From Acidobacteriota bacterium (GTDB lineage: Bacteria; Acidobacteriota; Terriglobia; Bryobacterales; Bryobacteraceae): 64,000 nucleotides of DNA. This document shows positions 4,477 to 34,758 of the stretch, piece by piece. Position 1 is the first letter of the stretch. Each line of letters starts with the position of its first letter. The notes beneath the pieces are model-generated. The model was not told the origin of the DNA. It was given only the letters and a program-made list of their open reading frames with translations, and did no database searches. A program made the translations under genes and the position numbers. The stretch is taken from assembly GCA_947470805.1 (NCBI GenBank), contig CANIVU010000023.1, positions 1 to 64,000 of the forward strand. Direction: 5' to 3'.

Positions 4477-6987
4477 TTACTCGCGGTTGACGAATTCGTC
4501 GAGGTTCAGGAGGACGCTGGCAAGACCGGTCCAGGCGGCGTGTTCGGCGGCATCGATGCCGGGCACGGGGTGGACGGGGAGCGTCTTTTCATTGGCGAAG
4601 AGGGTGCGCTGCTGATCGAGATATTTCGACAGGCGTTCGACTTCTGCGGGGCGCGCGTCGCGGTTGAGAACGAGTTGCGCGGCGTACTGAATGCGGTCCC
4701 TGTTCACGGCCGGGCCTTCGCGGAGGAGGCGGAGGGCGAGAGTTTCGGCGGCTTCCAGGAAGACGGGATCGTTCAGTAGATTGAGCGCCTGGAGAGACGT
4801 GTTCGAGTGGCCACGGCGGCAGGCGGCGGTGGTGGAGCGAGGCGCGTCGAAGTTCATCAGCAGCGGGTACGGGGTGGTGCGCTGGAAGTGGATGTAGAGC
4901 CCGCGGCGGTACTGTTCGGTGCCAGGGCTGACTTCCCATTTCGTGCCGCGACCGTAGCCAAGCGAGGAGACGCCATCGGGCTGCGGAGGCTTGATGGACG
5001 GGCCGCCGAGCTTGGAGAGATCGAGCAGGCCGGCGGAGAAGAGGGCGGCGTCGCGAATGGTTTCGGCATTCAGGCGGACGCGCGACTGGCGGGCGAGGTA
5101 CTTGTTTTCCGGGTCCTTTTCGGCGAGTTCGGGGCGGGCGTCGGAGGACTGCTTGTAGGTGGCCGATTGGACGATTTCGCGAATGATCTGTTTGCGGCTC
5201 CAGCCTTCGTCGCGGAACTTGGCGGCGAGGTAATCGAGCAGTTCGGGGTGGCTGGGGCGGGAGCCCATGATGCCGAAGTCTTCGGCGGTTTTGACGATTC
5301 CCTGCCCGAAGAGTTCCTGCCAGATTTTGTTGACGGTAACGCGGGCTGTGAGCGGATTTTCGGGGGCGGTGAGCCAGTTGGCGAGATCGAGCCGGGTGGC
5401 GCGGGCACCTTGTTTTTTCAGCGGCGGGAGGAAGGCGGGAGCGTCGGGTTCGACGGGGATGCCAAGCTGTTTAAAGTCACCGCGGATGCGGAGATGGGAC
5501 TGCTGGGGGTTCGGCGTTTCGAGGAGCGTGTACGCCTGGGTGAGTTGCGGATAAGCGGCTTCGAGGTCCTTCAGTTTCTTGTCGAGCTCGTCGAACTTGA
5601 TGTCCTTGTACGCCTTTTGACCGATGGCGAAGTGGTAGTTGCGAATGAAGTGGGTTTCGAGAATCCGCTTTTCGCGGGCAGTGCGTTGGGCGGCGGGGAT
5701 CTTGATGATCTTGCCGCCATCGCCACCTTCGGTGAGCTTCAGGAGGCAGTCCCAGGCGAGGTCCCAATCGGTGCGGCGGCCGGGGTTCTTGAAGGCGTCG
5801 AGCATGTCGACTTCCCAGGCCGGCTGCTTTTCGCGCACTTTGTATTCGGCGATGAGGGCTTCACGTTTCTTTTCGAATTCGGCGGCTTTGCGGAGCCAGA
5901 GGCCGGTTTCGCCGGGAAGTGGCGCGTCGATGTCCTCCTCTTCGGCGTTATCGAAGAAGGCATACATCTGGTAGAAATCCTTCTGGCGGAAGGGGTCGTA
6001 CTTGTGGTCGTGGCACTGGGCGCAGCCGGTGGTGAGACCGAGCCAGACGGAGCCGACGGTGGTGGATCGGTCGGCTACATTTTCGAATCGGAACTGGTTG
6101 TTGTCGATGCCACCTTCGCGATTGGTGAGGGTGTGGCGGCTGAAGCCGGTGGCGACCTTTTGCTCGACGGTGGCGTTGGGGAGCAGGTCGCCGGCGAGTT
6201 GTTCGCGGGTGAACTGATCGAAGGGCATGTCGCGATTGATGGCATCGATGACCCAGTTGCGCCAGCGCCAGGACCACGGGCGGGCCCAATCCTTTTCGTA
6301 GCCGTCGGAATCGGCGTAGCGGGCCTGATCGAGCCAGTGACGGGCCCATTTTTCACCGAATTGAGGGGAGGCGAGGAGGCGATCGATTTGCTTGTCGTAG
6401 GCGTTGGGAGAGGCGTCGGCGAGGAACGCCTGCATTTCGGCGGGCGTGGGGGGAATGCCCGTGAGGTCGAGCGAGAGGCGGCGGAGGAGGGTGGGTTTGT
6501 CGGCTTCTTTGGAGGGAGTCAGCGATTGCTTGGCAAGGGTGGCGCGGATGAAGGTATCGATGGCACCGGCGGGTTTGCGAATCGGTTGGAAGGCCCAGTG
6601 CGAAGAGGTGGACGCGGCCTTGGCGGCGGCACGGGTGGGGTATTGGGCACCCTGGTCGATCCAGGCTTTCAGGATGGCGACTTGTTCGGCAGGCAGACCT
6701 TTGGAGCCCATGGGCATGGCTTTCAAGCCGTTGGCGCCGGTGACGCGGTGGATGAGAGGACTGTCGGCGGATTGGCCGGGGAGGATGACTTTGCCGCCGT
6801 AGCCGCCGGCGAGGGCGGAGGGGCCGTCGTCGAGACGCACGCCGGAGGTTTGCTTGGAGGGACCGTGGCAGCCGTAGCATTTGGCGGCGAGGATCGGTTC
6901 GACTTGTTTGACGAAGTCGACGGGCTGCGCGGCCAGTAAGACGGAAGCGAAAATGAGGATCGCGACGATTTGTTGCACTTCCTTCAT
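4477..6987 (-). CDS. PSCyt1/DUF1549/DUF1553 (PSD1) multidomain protein
   Basis: An 836-residue secreted protein with signal peptide at residues 1-20. The N-terminal cytochrome-like PSCyt1 domain has one CxxCH heme motif at Cys37-His41 (CYGCH). A PSCyt2/DUF1549 domain spans roughly residues 130-340 and carries a second motif, CAQCH. A C-terminal PSD1/DUF1553 domain (about 540-810) contains NPLTARVTVNKIWQELFG and STTAACRRGHSN-type signatures. Two potential c-type heme sites suggest a periplasmic redox role, but the reaction is unknown. It is the first gene of the pair with the DUF1501 protein. The start at 6987 lacks a clear Shine-Dalgarno sequence. Family assignment is secure, function is not. 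Confidence 0.92.
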   Translation of the reverse strand: MKEVQQIVAILIFASVLLAAQPVDFVKQVEPILAAKCYGCHGPSKQTSGVRLDDGPSALAGGYGGKVILPGQSADSPLIHRVTGANGLKAMPMGSKGLPAEQVAILKAWIDQGAQYPTRAAAKAASTSSHWAFQPIRKPAGAIDTFIRATLAKQSLTPSKEADKPTLLRRLSLDLTGIPPTPAEMQAFLADASPNAYDKQIDRLLASPQFGEKWARHWLDQARYADSDGYEKDWARPWSWRWRNWVIDAINRDMPFDQFTREQLAGDLLPNATVEQKVATGFSRHTLTNREGGIDNNQFRFENVADRSTTVGSVWLGLTTGCAQCHDHKYDPFRQKDFYQMYAFFDNAEEEDIDAPLPGETGLWLRKAAEFEKKREALIAEYKVREKQPAWEVDMLDAFKNPGRRTDWDLAWDCLLKLTEGGDGGKIIKIPAAQRTAREKRILETHFIRNYHFAIGQKAYKDIKFDELDKKLKDLEAAYPQLTQAYTLLETPNPQQSHLRIRGDFKQLGIPVEPDAPAFLPPLKKQGARATRLDLANWLTAPENPLTARVTVNKIWQELFGQGIVKTAEDFGIMGSRPSHPELLDYLAAKFRDEGWSRKQIIREIVQSATYKQSSDARPELAEKDPENKYLARQSRVRLNAETIRDAALFSAGLLDLSKLGGPSIKPPQPDGVSSLGYGRGTKWEVSPGTEQYRRGLYIHFQRTTPYPLLMNFDAPRSTTAACRRGHSNTSLQALNLLNDPVFLEAAETLALRLLREGPAVNRDRIQYAAQLVLNRDARPAEVERLSKYLDQQRTLFANEKTLPVHPVPGIDAAEHAAWTGLASVLLNLDEFVNRE

Positions 6988-7011
6988 AGTACCGCCGAGC
7001 CGATTGTGCCC

Positions 7012-7032
7012 GGGACGAGGGGTGCTCGTCCC
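7012..7032. other. Short hairpin between the PSD1 protein and the FAD oxidoreductase
   Basis: GGGACGAG (7012-7019) pairs with CTCGTCCC (7025-7032) around a five-base loop. The only T-rich tail is on the plus-strand side (TTGTTTTATT), although both flanking genes are on the minus strand. It may be a weak or Rho-assisted terminator or an RNA-processing site. Confidence 0.35.
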
Positions 7033-7041
7033 AGGGTTGTT

Positions 7042-8198: not shown

Positions 8199-8867
8199 TT
8201 AGCCTTTCCCGCCGGGCTGGGGCACGATCCGAAGATACGGCCGCGGCGCCTTCCATCCGCCGGGATAGAGCCCCTTCGCTTCTTCGTCGGAGACGGAACC
8301 GGCGATGATGACATCGTTGCCCGGAGTCCAATTCACAGGCGTCGCGACGCGGTGGCTGGCGGTCAGTTGCAGGGAATCGATGACCCGGAGAATTTCGTCG
8401 AAATTACGACCGGTCGTCATGGGATACACGATGAAGAGTTTCACGCGCTTGTCCGGGCCGATGATGAAGACGGTTCGCACGGCGGCGTTGTTGGCGGCAG
8501 TGCGGCCTTCGCAGGTCTCACCGGCGTCGGCGGGCAGCATGCCGTAGAGCTTGGAGACGCTGAGATCGGTATCGCCAATCATGGGATAGTTCGGCGCGTA
8601 GCCTTGGGTTTCCGCGATATCTTCGGCCCATTTGTGGTGATTGGTGACGGGGTCGACGCTGAGGCCGATGACCTTGACTCCGCGCTTTTCAAACTCGGGC
8701 TGGAGTTTGGCCATGTAGCCCAATTCGGTGGTGCAGACGGGCGTGAAGTCTTTCGGGTGAGAGAACAGGATTCCCCACGATTCACCCAGCCATTCATGGA
8801 AGCGGATGCGCCCCTCAGTTGTCTCAGCTTCAAAATCGGGCGCAAGCCCATTAATTTGAACTTTCAT
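8199..8867 (-). CDS. Peroxiredoxin, Prx6/1-Cys type
   Basis: A 222-residue thiol peroxidase. The peroxidatic Cys45 lies in PVCTTE, preceded by FSHPKDFTP. The C-terminal extension (TPVNWTPGND, YPGGWKAPRPYLR) marks the Prx6/1-Cys group, which reduces peroxides without a conserved C-terminal resolving cysteine. AGGAAA lies upstream of the ATG. It is the first gene of a two-gene unit with the flavoprotein, which might supply reducing power, although that link is inferred only from adjacency. Length matches the family (about 210-225). Confidence 0.95.
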   Translation of the reverse strand: MKVQINGLAPDFEAETTEGRIRFHEWLGESWGILFSHPKDFTPVCTTELGYMAKLQPEFEKRGVKVIGLSVDPVTNHHKWAEDIAETQGYAPNYPMIGDTDLSVSKLYGMLPADAGETCEGRTAANNAAVRTVFIIGPDKRVKLFIVYPMTTGRNFDEILRVIDSLQLTASHRVATPVNWTPGNDVIIAGSVSDEEAKGLYPGGWKAPRPYLRIVPQPGGKG

Positions 8868-8904
8868 TGCCTATTTCCTCTAGATGTACGTGCTGTCTAT
8901 TGCC

Positions 8905-8919
8905 GCGAAAAAGTTTCGC
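8905..8919. other. Perfect 6-3-6 palindrome between folK and the peroxiredoxin gene
   Basis: GCGAAA-AAG-TTTCGC lies 37-51 bases upstream of the peroxiredoxin start and just downstream of the folK stop. It could be an operator for the peroxiredoxin operon or a short transcription end for folK. No adjacent T run decides it. Confidence 0.4.
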
Positions 8920-8929
8920 TGACGACAGT

Positions 8930-9361
8930 TTATCCCAAGCCGTGGGCAGAAGTCATCGGGAGACGAGAAGTTATTTCGCTGAGCGGAATGAGAACGAAAG
9001 GACGTTCGTGGATGAGCGGGTGCGGGATGGTCAGGTGGGGCGTTTTCAGGCGGAGGTTGCCGAAGTAGAGGATATCGATATCGATATTGCGGGGGCCCTT
9101 GTCGATCGTCTTGACGCGGCCCATGGCGCGTTCGACGCGTTGGGTGCGACGGAGCAGTTCGATGGCGAAGTGCGGCGTTTGGGCTTCGATCACCATGTTG
9201 AGAAAGTGGGGCTGATCGAGGACGTAGGCGGGCGCGGTTTCAATGATGGAACTGCGGCGGATGGTTTCGATGCCTTCGTGTTCGAGGCGGACGATGGCTT
9301 CGTTGAGCAGCGCTTCGCGGTCGCCGAGGTTGGAGCCGAGACCGAGATAGATCGTCGTCAA
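8930..9361 (-). CDS. folK: 2-amino-4-hydroxy-6-hydroxymethyldihydropteridine diphosphokinase
   Basis: A 143-residue HPPK that transfers pyrophosphate from ATP to 6-hydroxymethyl-7,8-dihydropterin in folate synthesis. The N-terminal YLGLGSNLGDR motif and the signature RNIDIDILYFG are intact, followed by LTIPHPLIHERPFVL. Its ATG overlaps the ruvB stop by four bases (ATGA), so translation is coupled and it is the last gene of ruvA-ruvB-folK. Folate genes are not otherwise present nearby, so the link to recombination genes is one of transcription rather than pathway. Confidence 0.95.
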   Translation of the reverse strand: MTTIYLGLGSNLGDREALLNEAIVRLEHEGIETIRRSSIIETAPAYVLDQPHFLNMVIEAQTPHFAIELLRRTQRVERAMGRVKTIDKGPRNIDIDILYFGNLRLKTPHLTIPHPLIHERPFVLIPLSEITSRLPMTSAHGLG

Positions 9362-10380
9362 AAGAGGCCTGGCTGCGGTGTGGGCGGTGGAGGGATTTTG
9401 AAATATTCGAACGCGCGGCGGGTGGCGACGCGGCCGCGAGGGGTGCGATCGAGGAAGCCGAGCTGCATGAGATAGGGCTCGTAGACGTCTTCGATGGTGG
9501 CCTCTTCTTCGTCGATGGAGGCAGCGATGGTTTTGATGCCGACGGGGCCGCCGGAGTACTTTTCGAGGATCGTCATCATGATCTTCTGATCGATCTCGTC
9601 GAGGCCGAAGCGATCGACTTCGAGCATGTCGAGCGCCGTCATGGCGATGGGGTGGGTGATGTGGCCGTTGGCGCGGACCTGGGCGTAGTCGCGGACGCGG
9701 CGGAGGAGGCGGTTGGCGATGCGGGGTGTGCCGCGGGCGCGGCGGGCGATTTCCGCGGCGCCGGGTTCGTCCACTTTGATTTGAAGGAGGCCGGCACTGC
9801 GGAGAACGATGGAGGTGAGGTCGGCGATGTCGTAGGGGTTGAGCCGGAGGACGAGGCCGAAGCGGCCGCGGAGCGGGGCGCTGATGAGGCCCTGGCGCGT
9901 GGTGGCGCCGACCGCGGTGAAGCGGTTGATGTCCATGGAATGGGTCCGGGCGCCGGCGCCGGTGCCGATCATGATGTCGACACGGAAATCTTCGAGGGCG
10001 GAGTAGAGGATTTCTTCGACGTCGGGCAGGAGGCGATGAATCTCGTCAATAAAAAAGACCTGTTTATCGCGGAGGTTGGTGAGGACGCCGGTGAGATCGA
10101 GCTTCTTCTGGATGATGGGCGCGGCGGTCTGGTCGAAGGCCACTTCGAGTTCGCCGGCGATCAAGTTGGCAAGAGTGGTTTTGCCGAGGCCGGGGGGGCC
10201 GTAGAGCAGTACGTGATCGAGCGCTTCGCCGCGCTGCTTTGCGGCCTGGATGGCGATGGAGAGGTTTTCTTTGAGGCGAGCCTGGCCGGTGAAATCGGCG
10301 AGGCGGCTGGGGCGGAGGGCGGTTTCGTATTGGCGGTCGCTGTCCATGGCGGCGCCGGAGATGAGTTCGCGGTCACGCAT
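9358..10380 (-). CDS. ruvB: Holliday junction branch-migration ATPase RuvB
   Basis: A 340-residue AAA+ helicase motor of the RuvAB branch-migration complex. Walker A GPPGLGKT is at residues 61-68 and Walker B FFIDEIHRL near residue 110. The sensor and C-terminal winged-helix regions are complete, ending in GLF. Length is standard (about 335-345). Its start codon shares one base with the ruvA stop, giving the usual coupled ruvA-ruvB order. No ruvC was seen in this window. The N-terminal 10-12 residues are variable in the family, and Met12 (MDSDRQ) is an alternative start. Confidence 0.97.
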   Translation of the reverse strand: MRDRELISGAAMDSDRQYETALRPSRLADFTGQARLKENLSIAIQAAKQRGEALDHVLLYGPPGLGKTTLANLIAGELEVAFDQTAAPIIQKKLDLTGVLTNLRDKQVFFIDEIHRLLPDVEEILYSALEDFRVDIMIGTGAGARTHSMDINRFTAVGATTRQGLISAPLRGRFGLVLRLNPYDIADLTSIVLRSAGLLQIKVDEPGAAEIARRARGTPRIANRLLRRVRDYAQVRANGHITHPIAMTALDMLEVDRFGLDEIDQKIMMTILEKYSGGPVGIKTIAASIDEEEATIEDVYEPYLMQLGFLDRTPRGRVATRRAFEYFKIPPPPTPQPGLF

Positions 10381-30264: not shown

Positions 30265-30633
30265 ATGAAACACACACCAGGATTTCTCGCCATTGTCGAT
30301 GCGGCTCGCGCGAAAGTCATCGAGATGTCGACGGACGAGTACCAGGCGCTGCAGGCCGCCGGCACGCCCCACGTTCTGATTGACGTCCGCGAAGATGGCG
30401 AGTTCGCCGCCGGGCACGCCGCCGGAGCGGTACATTTGGGCAAGGGGATCATCGAACGGGATATTGAAACGAAGCAACCGGACACCGGTAGTTTACTGGT
30501 GCTTTATTGCGGTGGCGGGTACCGTTCGGCGCTCGCCGCGGAAGCGATTCAACGGATGGGCTACACGAACGTTCGGTCCCTCGCCGGCGGTTGGCGCGCG
30601 TGGCGGGAAGCGGGACTCCCGATCGAAAGTTAA
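30265..30633 (+). CDS. Single-domain rhodanese-like sulfurtransferase
   Basis: A 122-residue rhodanese with active-site Cys82 in the loop CGGGYRS, preceded by IDVREDGEFAAGHAAGAVH. It could transfer sulfane sulfur to cyanide or thiol acceptors. It starts 22 bases after murA, so it is probably the third gene of that operon, without a clear functional tie. Its stop overlaps the convergent membrane-protein gene by four bases. Confidence 0.9.
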   Translation: MKHTPGFLAIVDAARAKVIEMSTDEYQALQAAGTPHVLIDVREDGEFAAGHAAGAVHLGKGIIERDIETKQPDTGSLLVLYCGGGYRSALAAEAIQRMGYTNVRSLAGGWRAWREAGLPIES

Positions 30634-30944
30634 GTGAAAAGGACGAAGTCCAGACTCCGCCAGATCACGTAAATCAGGCAAATGCCTTCGATAAACCGGA
30701 ATATCTTGACCACGCCCGGCGACATGAACTCGAACCGGATCAACATCGCGCAGACGACACCGACGTAAATGAAATTCGCTTCAAGGAAATGCCCGCCGGT
30801 TTTCTGGTAAAAGACCATCGCCAGATAATAAACCAGCGGCCAATTGCTCTCCGACGCCAGACGCCCGCGGATGCCAAACAGCCACGCCGTGATCGCGCAT
30901 GCGACCAGTGCGGCAACTTCGATATCGGTGAACCGAAAGGACAT
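30630..30944 (-). CDS. Small multi-pass membrane protein at the end of the cytochrome operon
   Basis: A 104-residue hydrophobic protein with about three to four predicted membrane helices (for example VAALVACAITAWLFGI and FIYVGVVCAMLIRF) and no recognised catalytic motif. It starts five bases after the beta-barrel gene stop, so it is almost surely co-transcribed with the decaheme cytochrome and barrel. It has no heme motif. Function unknown; a quinone- or assembly-related role would be speculation. Confidence 0.75.
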   Translation of the reverse strand: MSFRFTDIEVAALVACAITAWLFGIRGRLASESNWPLVYYLAMVFYQKTGGHFLEANFIYVGVVCAMLIRFEFMSPGVVKIFRFIEGICLIYVIWRSLDFVLFT

Positions 30945-30949
30945 CCCTC

Positions 30950-32986
30950 TCAGAAAGAATAGCTCAGACTGACATAGCCCGTGTGAGCCGAGTAGTCCTG
31001 GAGCTTGAGCAACCGTTCACTGTAGTCGTAATACTGCCAACCGGCATTCCAACGCAGGTTGCGGTGTAGGACAACCGAGACCCGCGCGAGGGGCGACTGG
31101 TAGGAAACCGGGAAAACCTGGGCACCGGAAAAGAGAGCCAGCGTAGAAGGGTTCAGCAACACATCGGGCCGCCCGGACTGGCCCGCCGTCGAACGGCCAT
31201 CCGCTCGATCCTGCGTCCGCACATAGCCGGCGTAGATATCCACGCGCTTCCGGATCTGGAACTGCGCTCCGCCATGGATGGTGTGCAGGTTACTCAGGTA
31301 GTAAGAGCGATCGCGTTCCACCAGGTCGAAGCTCGCAAAATACGCCAGACCGGTCAACGTATCCAGGTGGATGTAGCTGTAGCCGGCATCGAATTGGATC
31401 CCGGTCTTCGGCGTCCAACCGCCATTTGCCGACCAACTCCGGCCGGTCGACGAATGAACGAAAAGGGAGGTGGAGTTGGTGTTGTTAAACGAACGATAGT
31501 CAGCGTTGAAGTTGTACTTGGCGACGCGATACTGGAGACGCGCGTTGAGAGCGTGGTAGTCCTTGTCGCTGGTTGGATAGAAGGGCCTGTCGTTCCGCCC
31601 CACTTCCGCGCTAAACGAGATCCGAAGCGGCTTCAGCGGCTGAAGACGCAGGCCGCCCGTACCCGCTTTTTGGCGATTGAACTGCTCATCCGGACGAACA
31701 TTGGACGGGAGGGCGAACTCAGTGATTTCAGTGGATCGGATACGGCGTTCTGAATACTGGTAGTTTCCGAAGAAACCCATCCATTTCTTGGGCTGCCAGG
31801 AAGCATCGCTTGTATTGGAGATGTTACGAATCCCCAAATCCTGGAAGGAAACCAGCGAAAGGCCGGCATCCCCGTTGTTCAACTCCGAATAGCGGCCTTG
31901 TCCATTCATCCGCGTATTGTGATAACCGGTCTGGTTAGTGATAGTCCATTTTGTAGTCGGACGCCAAATCAGCGTGAGATACCCGGTCGTCACGGGACGG
32001 CTGCCGGTTCCGGAGAGCAGGATTTGACGGTTGCGCGCCCCGCCAAGACGATCGGTTCCAACAGCGAAGTCATCATAGATGAAGTTCCGCTGGCCATCGG
32101 AATGGGTGAATTTGCCTTGCACGGTGAAGACATTCGACGTCTCGGCCTGCAAATGGGCTCTCCAATAGGGCGTGCTGCCGTGCAACGGCTCGTTCCGGCG
32201 AATCAGAGAAAGGGTGTTGTTGTCATTGACGTTGGCTCCCGCCGGGGAAACAGGCGTTCCGTAGGCCGTGTCATCTTTGAACGCTTCCCAGCCGCGGGTA
32301 ATCGAGAGCTTCACTTTTCGCCATTCAATGTCCGTTCCTAGCCGATACTCACGCTGGGACCTGCGGATATTGGAAAGGAAGGTGTATTCGTCTCCACGGG
32401 AGTCAAACCACTGTCCGGTCGAGAGGCCTGCACCCCCTTGGCTGTTATTGGAATACCCCATTCGAAAGCGAATCTTGCTCTGTGGCAAGAGAGTCAGGTC
32501 ATGATCCTGCATCTGGCGGTTCGTCGAGAGGAAGTGATTGCCGCCCGAAATCGTCAGTGCCGGATTGAAGTACTCATTGGAGCGCCACAACAGGTCGTAG
32601 CGATAGAGGGCGTTCTTCTGAGCCCGCAGCGAACTGAACTGGTAGGGATCGTTGCCAAGTCCCCGGACGTCAAGCAGGAGTTCGTCGAACCACTTCCCCT
32701 TCCCGTCTCGCGAATGGACACCCAGACTGCCGCCCAAAAGGCGGATCCCGTTCCCCATATTCACATCACTGCGATACTTCCCGATGTTGCCGTCGACCGA
32801 ATTGAAACGGTATCCGATTTCCCAGGAGTTCGTGATGTTGTAGTCGCCAACAGTATCGCCGCGCGGGCTGCCCGCCTGCTGGGGAGTTGGCGCAACAACG
32901 GGTTGCCCGGACAGGTTCGAAAGGCTAAGGAAAAGGAGAAGGCCGGTCGTCTGAATACTCCGGCAGGATTGGAGTAGGTCTCTCAT
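30950..32986 (-). CDS. Large outer-membrane beta-barrel, MtrB/PioB-like partner of decaheme cytochrome
   Basis: A 678-residue protein starting at ATG 32986, which overlaps the cytochrome stop by four bases (ATGA). A signal peptide lies in residues 1-28. The N-terminal segment EIGYRFNSVDGNIGKYRSD and the alternating aromatic strands to the terminal YVSLSYSF match the MtrB/PioB porin pattern. Length agrees with that family (about 650-720). In that family the barrel encloses a decaheme cytochrome and lets electrons cross the outer membrane. The N-terminal CxxC of Shewanella MtrB is not seen. Family membership is inferred from pattern plus operon partner. Confidence 0.78.
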   Translation of the reverse strand: MRDLLQSCRSIQTTGLLLFLSLSNLSGQPVVAPTPQQAGSPRGDTVGDYNITNSWEIGYRFNSVDGNIGKYRSDVNMGNGIRLLGGSLGVHSRDGKGKWFDELLLDVRGLGNDPYQFSSLRAQKNALYRYDLLWRSNEYFNPALTISGGNHFLSTNRQMQDHDLTLLPQSKIRFRMGYSNNSQGGAGLSTGQWFDSRGDEYTFLSNIRRSQREYRLGTDIEWRKVKLSITRGWEAFKDDTAYGTPVSPAGANVNDNNTLSLIRRNEPLHGSTPYWRAHLQAETSNVFTVQGKFTHSDGQRNFIYDDFAVGTDRLGGARNRQILLSGTGSRPVTTGYLTLIWRPTTKWTITNQTGYHNTRMNGQGRYSELNNGDAGLSLVSFQDLGIRNISNTSDASWQPKKWMGFFGNYQYSERRIRSTEITEFALPSNVRPDEQFNRQKAGTGGLRLQPLKPLRISFSAEVGRNDRPFYPTSDKDYHALNARLQYRVAKYNFNADYRSFNNTNSTSLFVHSSTGRSWSANGGWTPKTGIQFDAGYSYIHLDTLTGLAYFASFDLVERDRSYYLSNLHTIHGGAQFQIRKRVDIYAGYVRTQDRADGRSTAGQSGRPDVLLNPSTLALFSGAQVFPVSYQSPLARVSVVLHRNLRWNAGWQYYDYSERLLKLQDYSAHTGYVSLSYSF

Positions 32987-33939
32987 CGCAAGAAGGTCCT
33001 GTCGGCGTTGGAGCCATGAATTCGAACGTGGCAAGTCGTGCAGTTTCGGTACCGCGGGTCGGCCATATTGTGCGACGCCGACTGGGTAGCCACGCCGTCC
33101 GCCTGACGGCCGAAACTCCCGGCACCGTTGTGGCATTCCAGACAGACTGTCAGGATAACCGGACGTTTCAGCAGCCTGGAGTTTACCGAGCCATGGGGAG
33201 AGTGACAGCTTTCGCACCCGTCCACACGAACCGCGGCGTGTTCGTACAGGAAGGGGCCCCGCTTATCGACATGGCACTTCAAACAAGCCTGCTCGTTATT
33301 CAAACCCGTATCAACGAGATGAGGACGTCGCCCCATCTTCCAGGTCGCCGGGTTCGTTCCATGAGGATTGTGGCAGTCAGAACAAGACATGAAACCTTCA
33401 TTGACCCGGTGCTTGGAAGGAAGGGAGAATTGCGCTCTCACGTCGTTGTGACAGCCATAACAGACGTCAGCCTGGCGCTTGCTTAGCAGATTGCGGTTCG
33501 ACTCAGACTGATGGATCGAATGGCACGATGTGCAAACGACGTTGGCTTGTGTGTGATTACTGCGCCGTATATTCGCCCGGTTCTGGTCTTTGGAATGGCA
33601 CCGCAGACAGGTATCGAGGGCTTGCCCCGGAGTCATCTGGGAGAACGCGCCAATCGAGTCCTTCCCGCCTTTAGCCTCCACGTGTTTCTTACCCGGACCA
33701 TGGCAACCTTCGCAACCGGCCTTATCGATTGGCGTGTTAGGAAGGACAGCGGTCTTGTTGTGGGGGTTTCGAAAAAACTGAAGCGCCACATTCGGGTGGC
33801 AGGTACGACATGCATTGCTGCCGGCATAGGCATCGTTGGCCGTGGCCGTTTTCGCAGCTGCGGGCTGGGCCGCCATGTCGTGGACACCCAACACAGCGAA
33901 CAGCAAAAAACTCAGGGGGATGGCGCGGAGAAGAAACAT
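32983..33939 (-). CDS. Decaheme c-type cytochrome (MtrA/DmsE/PioA family)
   Basis: A 318-residue secreted cytochrome with signal peptide at residues 1-24. Ten CxxCH motifs begin at Cys44, 76, 111, 136, 160, 186, 219, 242, 266 and 300. The count, spacing and length match the periplasmic MtrA/DmsE decaheme family, in which a heme wire passes electrons to or from the outer membrane. It is the first gene of a three-gene operon with the MtrB-like barrel and a small membrane protein. A -10-like TATAGT lies about 20 bases upstream, without a clear -35. No extracellular MtrC-type cytochrome is seen in the window. Confidence 0.95.
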   Translation of the reverse strand: MFLLRAIPLSFLLFAVLGVHDMAAQPAAAKTATANDAYAGSNACRTCHPNVALQFFRNPHNKTAVLPNTPIDKAGCEGCHGPGKKHVEAKGGKDSIGAFSQMTPGQALDTCLRCHSKDQNRANIRRSNHTQANVVCTSCHSIHQSESNRNLLSKRQADVCYGCHNDVRAQFSLPSKHRVNEGFMSCSDCHNPHGTNPATWKMGRRPHLVDTGLNNEQACLKCHVDKRGPFLYEHAAVRVDGCESCHSPHGSVNSRLLKRPVILTVCLECHNGAGSFGRQADGVATQSASHNMADPRYRNCTTCHVRIHGSNADRTFLR

Positions 33940-34089: not shown

Positions 34090-34758
34090 TTAGAAGAGAA
34101 CACTCAAACCGGCGGTTGGGGCGAAATTCTGAATCCAGCCGTCGCCGCCACTGCCACGATTCGGGGCGATCACTTTCTTGGGGAACCGGGTCATGTTGTC
34201 CCGGAACTCCAGCCGGAGCAGGACTTTGTCGGTGAGTTGCATTTTGACACCGACACCGAATGTGATCAGCCCGGTCAGTTCAGTCGTGCGACTGAGTACC
34301 GCGATCTGGCTGAGAGCCTGAAACGCTCGTTCTTCGCCAGTCCCGCGGAACATCTTGACGCCACCGCCGGCGAGGACAAATGGGCGCACCCGGGATTGGC
34401 TATCCGTAAAGTGGAAATGCACATCATAGTGAACTGCATGGGACTCGCCGCCAAAGGTAGCCTTCGCGCCGGAGCCTTCCAGCTTCATATCATTTCGGAG
34501 GAAATCGTATCGGATTTCTCCGGAAAGTTTCGGGTACATGTGGTGGCCAAGCCAGGCACTTGCGCCGATTCCCGTGTCGAATCCCGCATCGGCGTTACCG
34601 GCGGTCGACGTAAACGTTTTCTTGTCGTAGAAGCTGCCGACGACGCCACCGCCAAACTCGTAGCGAGGACCGGCGGGCTGTCCTTGGGCCCAACTCAGGG
34701 TGGCCGGCGACAACATCAGGAACGTGAGGGTGATTTTCTGGGCAAGCGAATTTCGCAT
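34090..34758 (-). CDS. Outer-membrane beta-barrel protein (small, OmpA/OmpW-like size)
   Basis: A 222-residue protein with signal peptide (residues 1-25, ending SWAQ), then alternating strands with glycine/aromatic content (YEFGGGVVGSFYD, GEIRYDFLRND, TFGVGVKMQL, LLRLEFRDNMTRF) and a terminal Phe (GLSVLF). These features fit an eight-stranded barrel of the OMP_b-brl type. It lies just upstream of the cytochrome operon on the same strand, separated by 150 bases and a hairpin, so a link to electron transfer is only positional. Confidence 0.72.
   Translation of the reverse strand: MRNSLAQKITLTFLMLSPATLSWAQGQPAGPRYEFGGGVVGSFYDKKTFTSTAGNADAGFDTGIGASAWLGHHMYPKLSGEIRYDFLRNDMKLEGSGAKATFGGESHAVHYDVHFHFTDSQSRVRPFVLAGGGVKMFRGTGEERAFQALSQIAVLSRTTELTGLITFGVGVKMQLTDKVLLRLEFRDNMTRFPKKVIAPNRGSGGDGWIQNFAPTAGLSVLF

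Follow-up and report, generated by a model that had tools for sequence, protein, structure and literature searches.

In the Mtr complex of Shewanella, the outer-membrane protein MtrB forms a barrel of 26 strands with a helix between the first two (PMC7198977), and either MtrAB or MtoA with MtrB can alone carry electrons across the outer membrane of S. oneidensis (PMC4245776). The MtoAB and PioAB systems of iron oxidisers are described without MtrC (PMC10654088, PMC4245776), and PioB/MtoB is likewise described with 26 strands (PMC10654088). In Geobacter, the Pcc system OmbB-OmaB-OmcB follows the same principle of a porin and a periplasmic cytochrome, with 18 to 22 strands and 5 to 14 hemes (PMC4245776). 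Acidobacteria have been proposed as iron reducers on the basis of decaheme genes (PMC3669403). Reports from this phylum include candidate mtrA/mtrB homologues in, among others, Candidatus Solibacter usitatus and Bryobacter aggregatus (Eichorst et al. 2018, PMC5900883), an MtrB-like conduit in Holophaga (PMC7399161), PioA/MtoA homologues in Acidobacteriia (PMC10654088), and MtrCAB Group 5, comprising Bryobacterales and unclassified Acidobacteriia, from a PSI-BLAST survey that required mtrC (Baker et al. 2022, PMC8805035). Homologues of both MtrAB and MtrCAB in Bryobacterales are already published; soil acidobacteria are suspected of extracellular electron transfer, which has been little tested.

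Here we describe a gene pair in a 64,000-nucleotide stretch of DNA (the window; positions 1 to 64,000 of contig CANIVU010000023.1, assembly GCA_947470805.1) from a member of the Bryobacteraceae. The pair encodes a decaheme c-type cytochrome and an outer-membrane beta-barrel, and a gene for a small membrane protein follows it (Table 1). A first-pass annotation of this DNA had proposed an MtrA/MtrB-type outer-membrane conduit. The proposal is well supported by a curated-model match and conserved candidate heme ligands in the cytochrome, a 26-stranded fold in the barrel, matches of the two proteins to both chains of structure 6r2q, a controlled profile comparison, and co-inheritance of the genes. 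The cytochrome and the barrel are likely to constitute a stand-alone MtrAB-type conduit.

The cytochrome-barrel pair

The cytochrome carries exactly ten CXXCH motifs in its 318 residues, and its TGA stop overlaps the ATG of the barrel gene by 4 nt (ATGA at 32986-32983), both as first annotated. It scored 267.2 bits against TIGR03508 (DmsE/MtrA) over residues 40-313, above the cut-off of 192.2, in a comparison that the annotation had suggested. A phmmer search matched it to Protein Data Bank (PDB) chain 6r2q_A (E = 3.8e-38), which was also the sole match at E ≤ 0.001 in a Foldseek search of its predicted fold (E = 1.8e-7). The molecule label of this chain in the sequence file is not a cytochrome name; the Foldseek entry name is that of the Mtr complex. 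We aligned 42 cytochromes (alignment A1, from 31 of 32 loci fetched from relatives, L066 missing, and from others). Ten CXXCH motifs are present in all 42, and exactly ten histidines outside the motifs are conserved, each in 40 to 42 of the sequences (positions 60, 86, 129, 143, 177, 193, 234, 249, 290, and 308). Judged from sequence, these are the candidate distal heme ligands, in the number expected for ten bis-histidine hemes. A short two-heme frame at L042:1785-2219, which shares 55% identity with the cytochrome across 72 residues, is perhaps a decayed partial copy. A search of plasmids returned one Photobacterium match for the cytochrome and none for the barrel.

The barrel was first described as MtrB/PioB-like. 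It gave no sequence match in NCBIfam, Pfam, or PDB, and a comparison with the curated MtrB model TIGR03509, also suggested at that stage, returned no match at all, so that its likeness to MtrB is visible only by fold and by profile. At those two levels the description stood. The AlphaFold2 model of the barrel (predicted local distance difference test score, pLDDT, 82.7; predicted template modelling score, pTM, 0.73) contains 31 strands by DSSP, of which 26 have at least nine residues and five have 3 to 8, and a short helix at residues 68-74 separates the first of the long strands from the second. TonB-dependent receptors, by contrast, have 22 strands. The top Foldseek match was MtrB, chain 6r2q_B (E = 2.1e-15; template modelling score, TM, 0.64; 12% identity), and the other 49 of the best 50 rows, mostly transport receptors, had query TM scores of 0.37 to 0.44. 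In hhalign, the profile of the barrel family matched that of 19 acidobacterial TIGR03509-positive barrels over nearly the full length (98.9%, E = 2.9e-17, 10% identity), and a second, overlapping query alignment of 22, which shares members with the first, gave 99.4% (E = 1.5e-21). A negative control with 15 LptD barrels from relatives gave 0.1% and 0.4%, which rules out generic barrel likeness as the cause of the profile match. Among the alignments used, A4 holds 19 of 20 TIGR03509 loci (L079 is cut by a contig end), A5 holds 21 of 22 phylum homologue rows (L026, nearly identical to L025, is omitted) and overlaps with A3 in membership, and A6 holds 15 of 20 LptD loci.

A contig scan of relatives yielded 32 loci, and the cytochrome and barrel genes are adjacent in all of them, so the arrangement is not due to chance. 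Of the 31 loci measured, 19 have the 4-nt overlap; in the 32nd (L066) the two genes are 13 nt apart, and the contig of L060 breaks off within the barrel. The closest of the 32 relatives is L041, from Candidatus Sulfopaludibacter (91% for the cytochrome and 92% for the barrel). By name, 10 of the 32 are Bryobacter, Bryobacteraceae, or Bryobacterales, three are Sulfopaludibacter, one is Acidimicrobiia, and the rest have other or broader acidobacterial names. The Acidimicrobiia bacterium record (L055) shows acidobacterial gene order around the pair and is probably a misbinned contig. Matches to the window barrel were found in 65 of 297 genomes of the phylum. Two genomes (G291 and G131; loci L100 and L101) have a distant relative of the pair next to a TIGR03509-type conduit.

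Were the barrel an ordinary large porin or receptor, adjoining a periplasmic decaheme cytochrome by happenstance, the missing TIGR03509 and Pfam matches would be expected, and many other large barrels do match its model (284 Foldseek matches at E ≤ 0.001). We regard this explanation as highly improbable, given the 26 strands, MtrB as the clear top match, a profile match to MtrB with none to LptD, and a cytochrome gene alongside in 32 of 32 loci, often overlapping.

Several results nevertheless weigh against an MtrAB-type conduit. TIGR03509 (cut-off 240) matched none of 41 aligned barrels, the window barrel included. The AlphaFold model of the cytochrome is weak (pLDDT 63, pTM 0.53) and is poor beyond about residue 200, its fold match to 6r2q_A has TM scores of 0.44 and 0.52 with a root mean square deviation (rmsd) of 9.9, and the match of the barrel to 6r2q_B has an rmsd of 7.7. 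The correlation between cytochrome and barrel distances, 0.96 over 38 loci (L100 and L101, with two cytochromes each, set aside), speaks for the conduit but also reflects shared ancestry. No periplasmic donor or quinol dehydrogenase was seen at the window locus; PF03264 (CymA/NapC quinol dehydrogenase), searched genome-wide, had a single match in the source genome, at another conduit locus (contig C31, described below) away from the window pair.

In an MtrAB-type conduit, both proteins would be exported and the 26-stranded barrel would insert in the outer membrane, where it may sheathe the rod-shaped decaheme cytochrome in a physical complex. The ten bis-histidine hemes would then act as a wire from the periplasm to the cell surface, with the last heme presumably exposed there, and electrons could be exchanged directly with soluble or mineral substrates (iron, humics, or shuttles) with no dedicated surface cytochrome. 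Electrons could flow outward, for reduction as in Mtr, or be taken up as in Mto/Pio.

Among described systems, the window pair resembles Shewanella MtrAB in its ten CXXCH motifs with ten candidate distal histidines, its 26-stranded sheath, and the two chains of 6r2q as top fold matches; it differs in the 12% identity of the barrel in the Foldseek alignment, in lying outside TIGR03509, and in having no mtrC at the locus. With MtoAB and PioAB it shares a decaheme cytochrome and a 26-stranded barrel without an MtrC gene, a likeness drawn from published descriptions (PMC10654088, PMC4245776) and not from MtoA or PioA sequences. These systems belong to another phylum, however, and no gene for MtoD, CymA, or PioC was seen next to the window pair; by model, only PF03264 was searched for, genome-wide. 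The pair shares the porin and periplasmic cytochrome principle of Pcc and differs from it in having 26 strands, 10 hemes, and no outer-membrane cytochrome gene at the locus. As for the GSU2203/GSU2204 families, the cytochrome scored 231 bits against NF041028, below the 325-bit cut-off; NF041027 matched 15 of the 41 aligned barrels weakly (best 7.3e-6), below its 350-bit cut-off, and the window barrel not at all.

MtrC and a second conduit type in the order

The first-pass annotation had found no MtrC-like gene in the window, and our search agrees: besides the cytochrome, the only frame of more than 60 residues with heme motifs is one of 854 residues at 4477-7041 (-), with two CXXCH. In none of the 32 loci, 16 of which have at least 4 kb of sequence on either side, is there any other frame with at least three CXXCH.

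We then counted barrels and MtrC genes in 150 genomes of the source's own order. A barrel match of some kind is present in 135 and, among the matches listed, a strong one (E of 2.5e-85 or better, the window type in a broad sense) in 115; MtrC over the TIGR03507 cut-off is present in 95. Of the 116 strong barrels listed, one (in genome G428) has an MtrC gene within 10 kb, compared with 29 of 30 weaker barrels of a second type. This proximity count takes only MtrC rows over the cut-off among the matches listed, where short contigs can hide a neighbouring MtrC, and it omits four barrel rows (fragments in G413, G427, and G378, and the C73 paralogue of the source genome). At the level of whole genomes, strong barrels and MtrC show no association (Fisher p 0.69): 74 genomes have both, 41 have the barrel alone, 21 have MtrC alone, and 14 have neither. 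In its genomic distribution the pair is independent of mtrC.

A search of the source genome for outer-surface multiheme proteins, as had been recommended, found three MtrC-type proteins over the TIGR03507 cut-off, all away from the window locus. In addition to the window pair, this genome holds a paralogous pair on contig C73, an mtrC-mtrA-mtrB set on C31, and tandem MtrC-type genes on C5. The C31 locus (L097, G000:C31:43000-62000) also encodes a NapC-like membrane protein with five hemes, a b561/nine-heme membrane protein, and a monoheme protein; its barrel, too, has no TIGR03509 match. The tandem genes (L130, G000:C5:6150-7994 and 8519-10348) both encode decaheme cytochromes over the cut-off, the first with a likely lipobox by reading, on a contig with no TIGR03508 match. 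The gene picker used for the loci skips some genes, among them the second of these, which was found by profile search.

These proteins raise the question of whether the window pair serves as the outer-membrane core in a split MtrCAB, to which an MtrC-type cytochrome encoded elsewhere (the C5 tandem or C31) docks. Three candidates are available in the genome, two of them in tandem on a contig with no TIGR03508 match, and in the G428 case (L143, G428:C584:1-12000) a pair of the window type is followed on the same strand, after about 300 nt, by mtrC. That is one case among 116 strong barrels listed, however, set against 29 of 30 for the second type, and across genomes the strong barrel shows no association with MtrC. 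We therefore consider a split MtrCAB unlikely.

In a quick tree of 65 cytochromes (Shimodaira-Hasegawa-like approximate likelihood-ratio support only, with long branches), 18 of the 19 cytochromes linked to TIGR03509 barrels form one block with a support of 100; the other two rows of this block are repeat extracts of loci that it already contains. The window type falls in a 37-row group with a support of 96, and the cytochromes of C31 and of G430 lie just outside. The G430 locus (L145) has mtrC and a downstream tetraheme gene, and its cytochrome branch differs from the window type; it presumably represents Group 5 MtrCAB, which is described with this layout (Baker et al. 2022, PMC8805035). Group 5 shares with the window pair an MtrAB core and the order, but not the absence of mtrC and of the tetraheme gene.

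A broader interpretation, plausible though more doubtful than the conduit itself, is that the pair belongs to a distinct, deeply branching lineage of the MtrAB superfamily, missed by the standard MtrB model, which serves most of the order as an MtrC-independent wire for direct exchange with soluble compounds or humics, or for uptake, while in many of these genomes a second conduit, linked to MtrC, may serve a different purpose. Since the curated model misses the barrel and yet 115 of the 150 genomes carry a strong match, surveys that rely on TIGR03509 or look for mtrC would find this 26-stranded conduit too rarely. TIGR03509 itself matched in 62 of the 297 phylum genomes, over the cut-off in 24, and gave no match in the source genome or in 14 control genomes. 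Two conduit types within one order, one near mtrC almost always and the other almost never, make the role of MtrC directly testable. In the literature searched, outside which most subscription journals lie, we did not find an MtrC-less type described in this order, nor its independence from a third gene.

The 104-residue membrane protein

The first-pass annotation had named a 104-residue membrane protein as the third gene, in place of MtrC. The gene is indeed present, 5 nt beyond the barrel stop on the same (-) strand, and is perhaps co-transcribed with the pair; as a replacement for MtrC it was rejected, because it is kept without the pair and the pair is kept without it. The protein has no Pfam or NCBIfam match, and Pfam gave weak, scattered matches only on the 26 aligned members of its family (alignment A2), in which R70, E72, and F73 are invariant. 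Used as a query against the 297 phylum genomes it matched in three, and its profile gave 83 matches in 82 of the 150 genomes of the order.

If the conduit consisted of three genes, the small protein would be a specific partner, for electron entry, assembly, or anchoring. In 54 of the 83 matches the small gene follows a strong barrel on the same strand, at a distance of 6 to 282 nt (median 26). It is a neighbour of the pair in 25 of the 32 loci fetched (24, and L051 by clustering) and stays there where the downstream context has changed, as in L046, L050, L053, and L058. The pair and the small gene are also both present in the genome record of the isolate Bryobacterales bacterium F-183 (L048). 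Against this, and counting the barrel matches listed, a strong barrel is missing from 21 of the 82 genomes with the small gene and lies apart from it in another 8, while 54 genomes have a strong barrel without the small gene. The family also has no conserved cysteine or histidine for a cofactor. In the 25 loci with all three genes, distances correlate at 0.95 between cytochrome and barrel, 0.68 between cytochrome and small protein, and 0.80 between barrel and small protein.

We inspected ten sites where the small gene occurs without the pair; eight belong to genomes that have no strong barrel, and two (L139 and L140) to genomes that have one elsewhere. Six of them (L136 to L141) have, in order, genes for a 1005-residue propeller protein and a 222-residue barrel (OMP222), the upstream neighbours of the window pair, and the small gene, with no cytochrome or barrel between them (tblastn, E 1e-4). 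At the other four (L099, L133, L134, and L135) the small gene stands by Tad or rhodanese/murA genes. In L142 the pair is present, and the propeller and OMP222 genes were not found. The unit that is gained or lost is therefore the two-gene pair. The same sites dispose of OMP222 and the propeller protein as surface partners. A three-gene conduit thus appears improbable, and the 104-residue protein is a real conserved gene that is most likely a neighbour, and probably no subunit, of the conduit.

Surroundings of the pair

Coordinates of the pair and its immediate neighbours are given in Table 1.

Table 1. Features at the window locus, with positions in the 64,000-nucleotide stretch
Feature	Position	Strand	Description
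Decaheme c-type cytochrome	32983-33939	-	318 aa; exactly 10 CXXCH; signal peptide by reading
MtrB-like outer-membrane beta-barrel	30950-32986	-	678 aa; C-terminal F; no internal stops
Small membrane protein	30630-30944	-	104 aa; about 3 helices; motif SNxPL...RFEF
Small outer-membrane barrel, OMP_b-brl/OprF-like (OMP222)	34090-34758	-	222 aa; below cut-offs; upstream neighbour

The OMP222 and propeller genes lie upstream on the same strand, and OMP222 narrowly misses the Pfam cut-off for PF13505 (28.5 bits against 28.7). A terminator-like hairpin of 18 pairs is found at 34842-34803, 3' of the propeller gene, so a polycistronic transcript, if there is one, probably starts at or after the OMP222 gene. 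The window has 10 terminator-like sites compared with 4.9 in shuffled sequences, the remaining sites being much weaker than this one; a promoter scan gave 1 site against 1.9 expected. No reductase, and hence no molybdenum DMSO reductase subunit as in DmsEFAB, was seen among the six window neighbours scanned with Pfam. Downstream and convergent with the pair, Pfam identified genes for a rhodanese, an EPSP-synthase-family protein, which we take to be MurA, and a SIS-domain protein, presumably MurQ.

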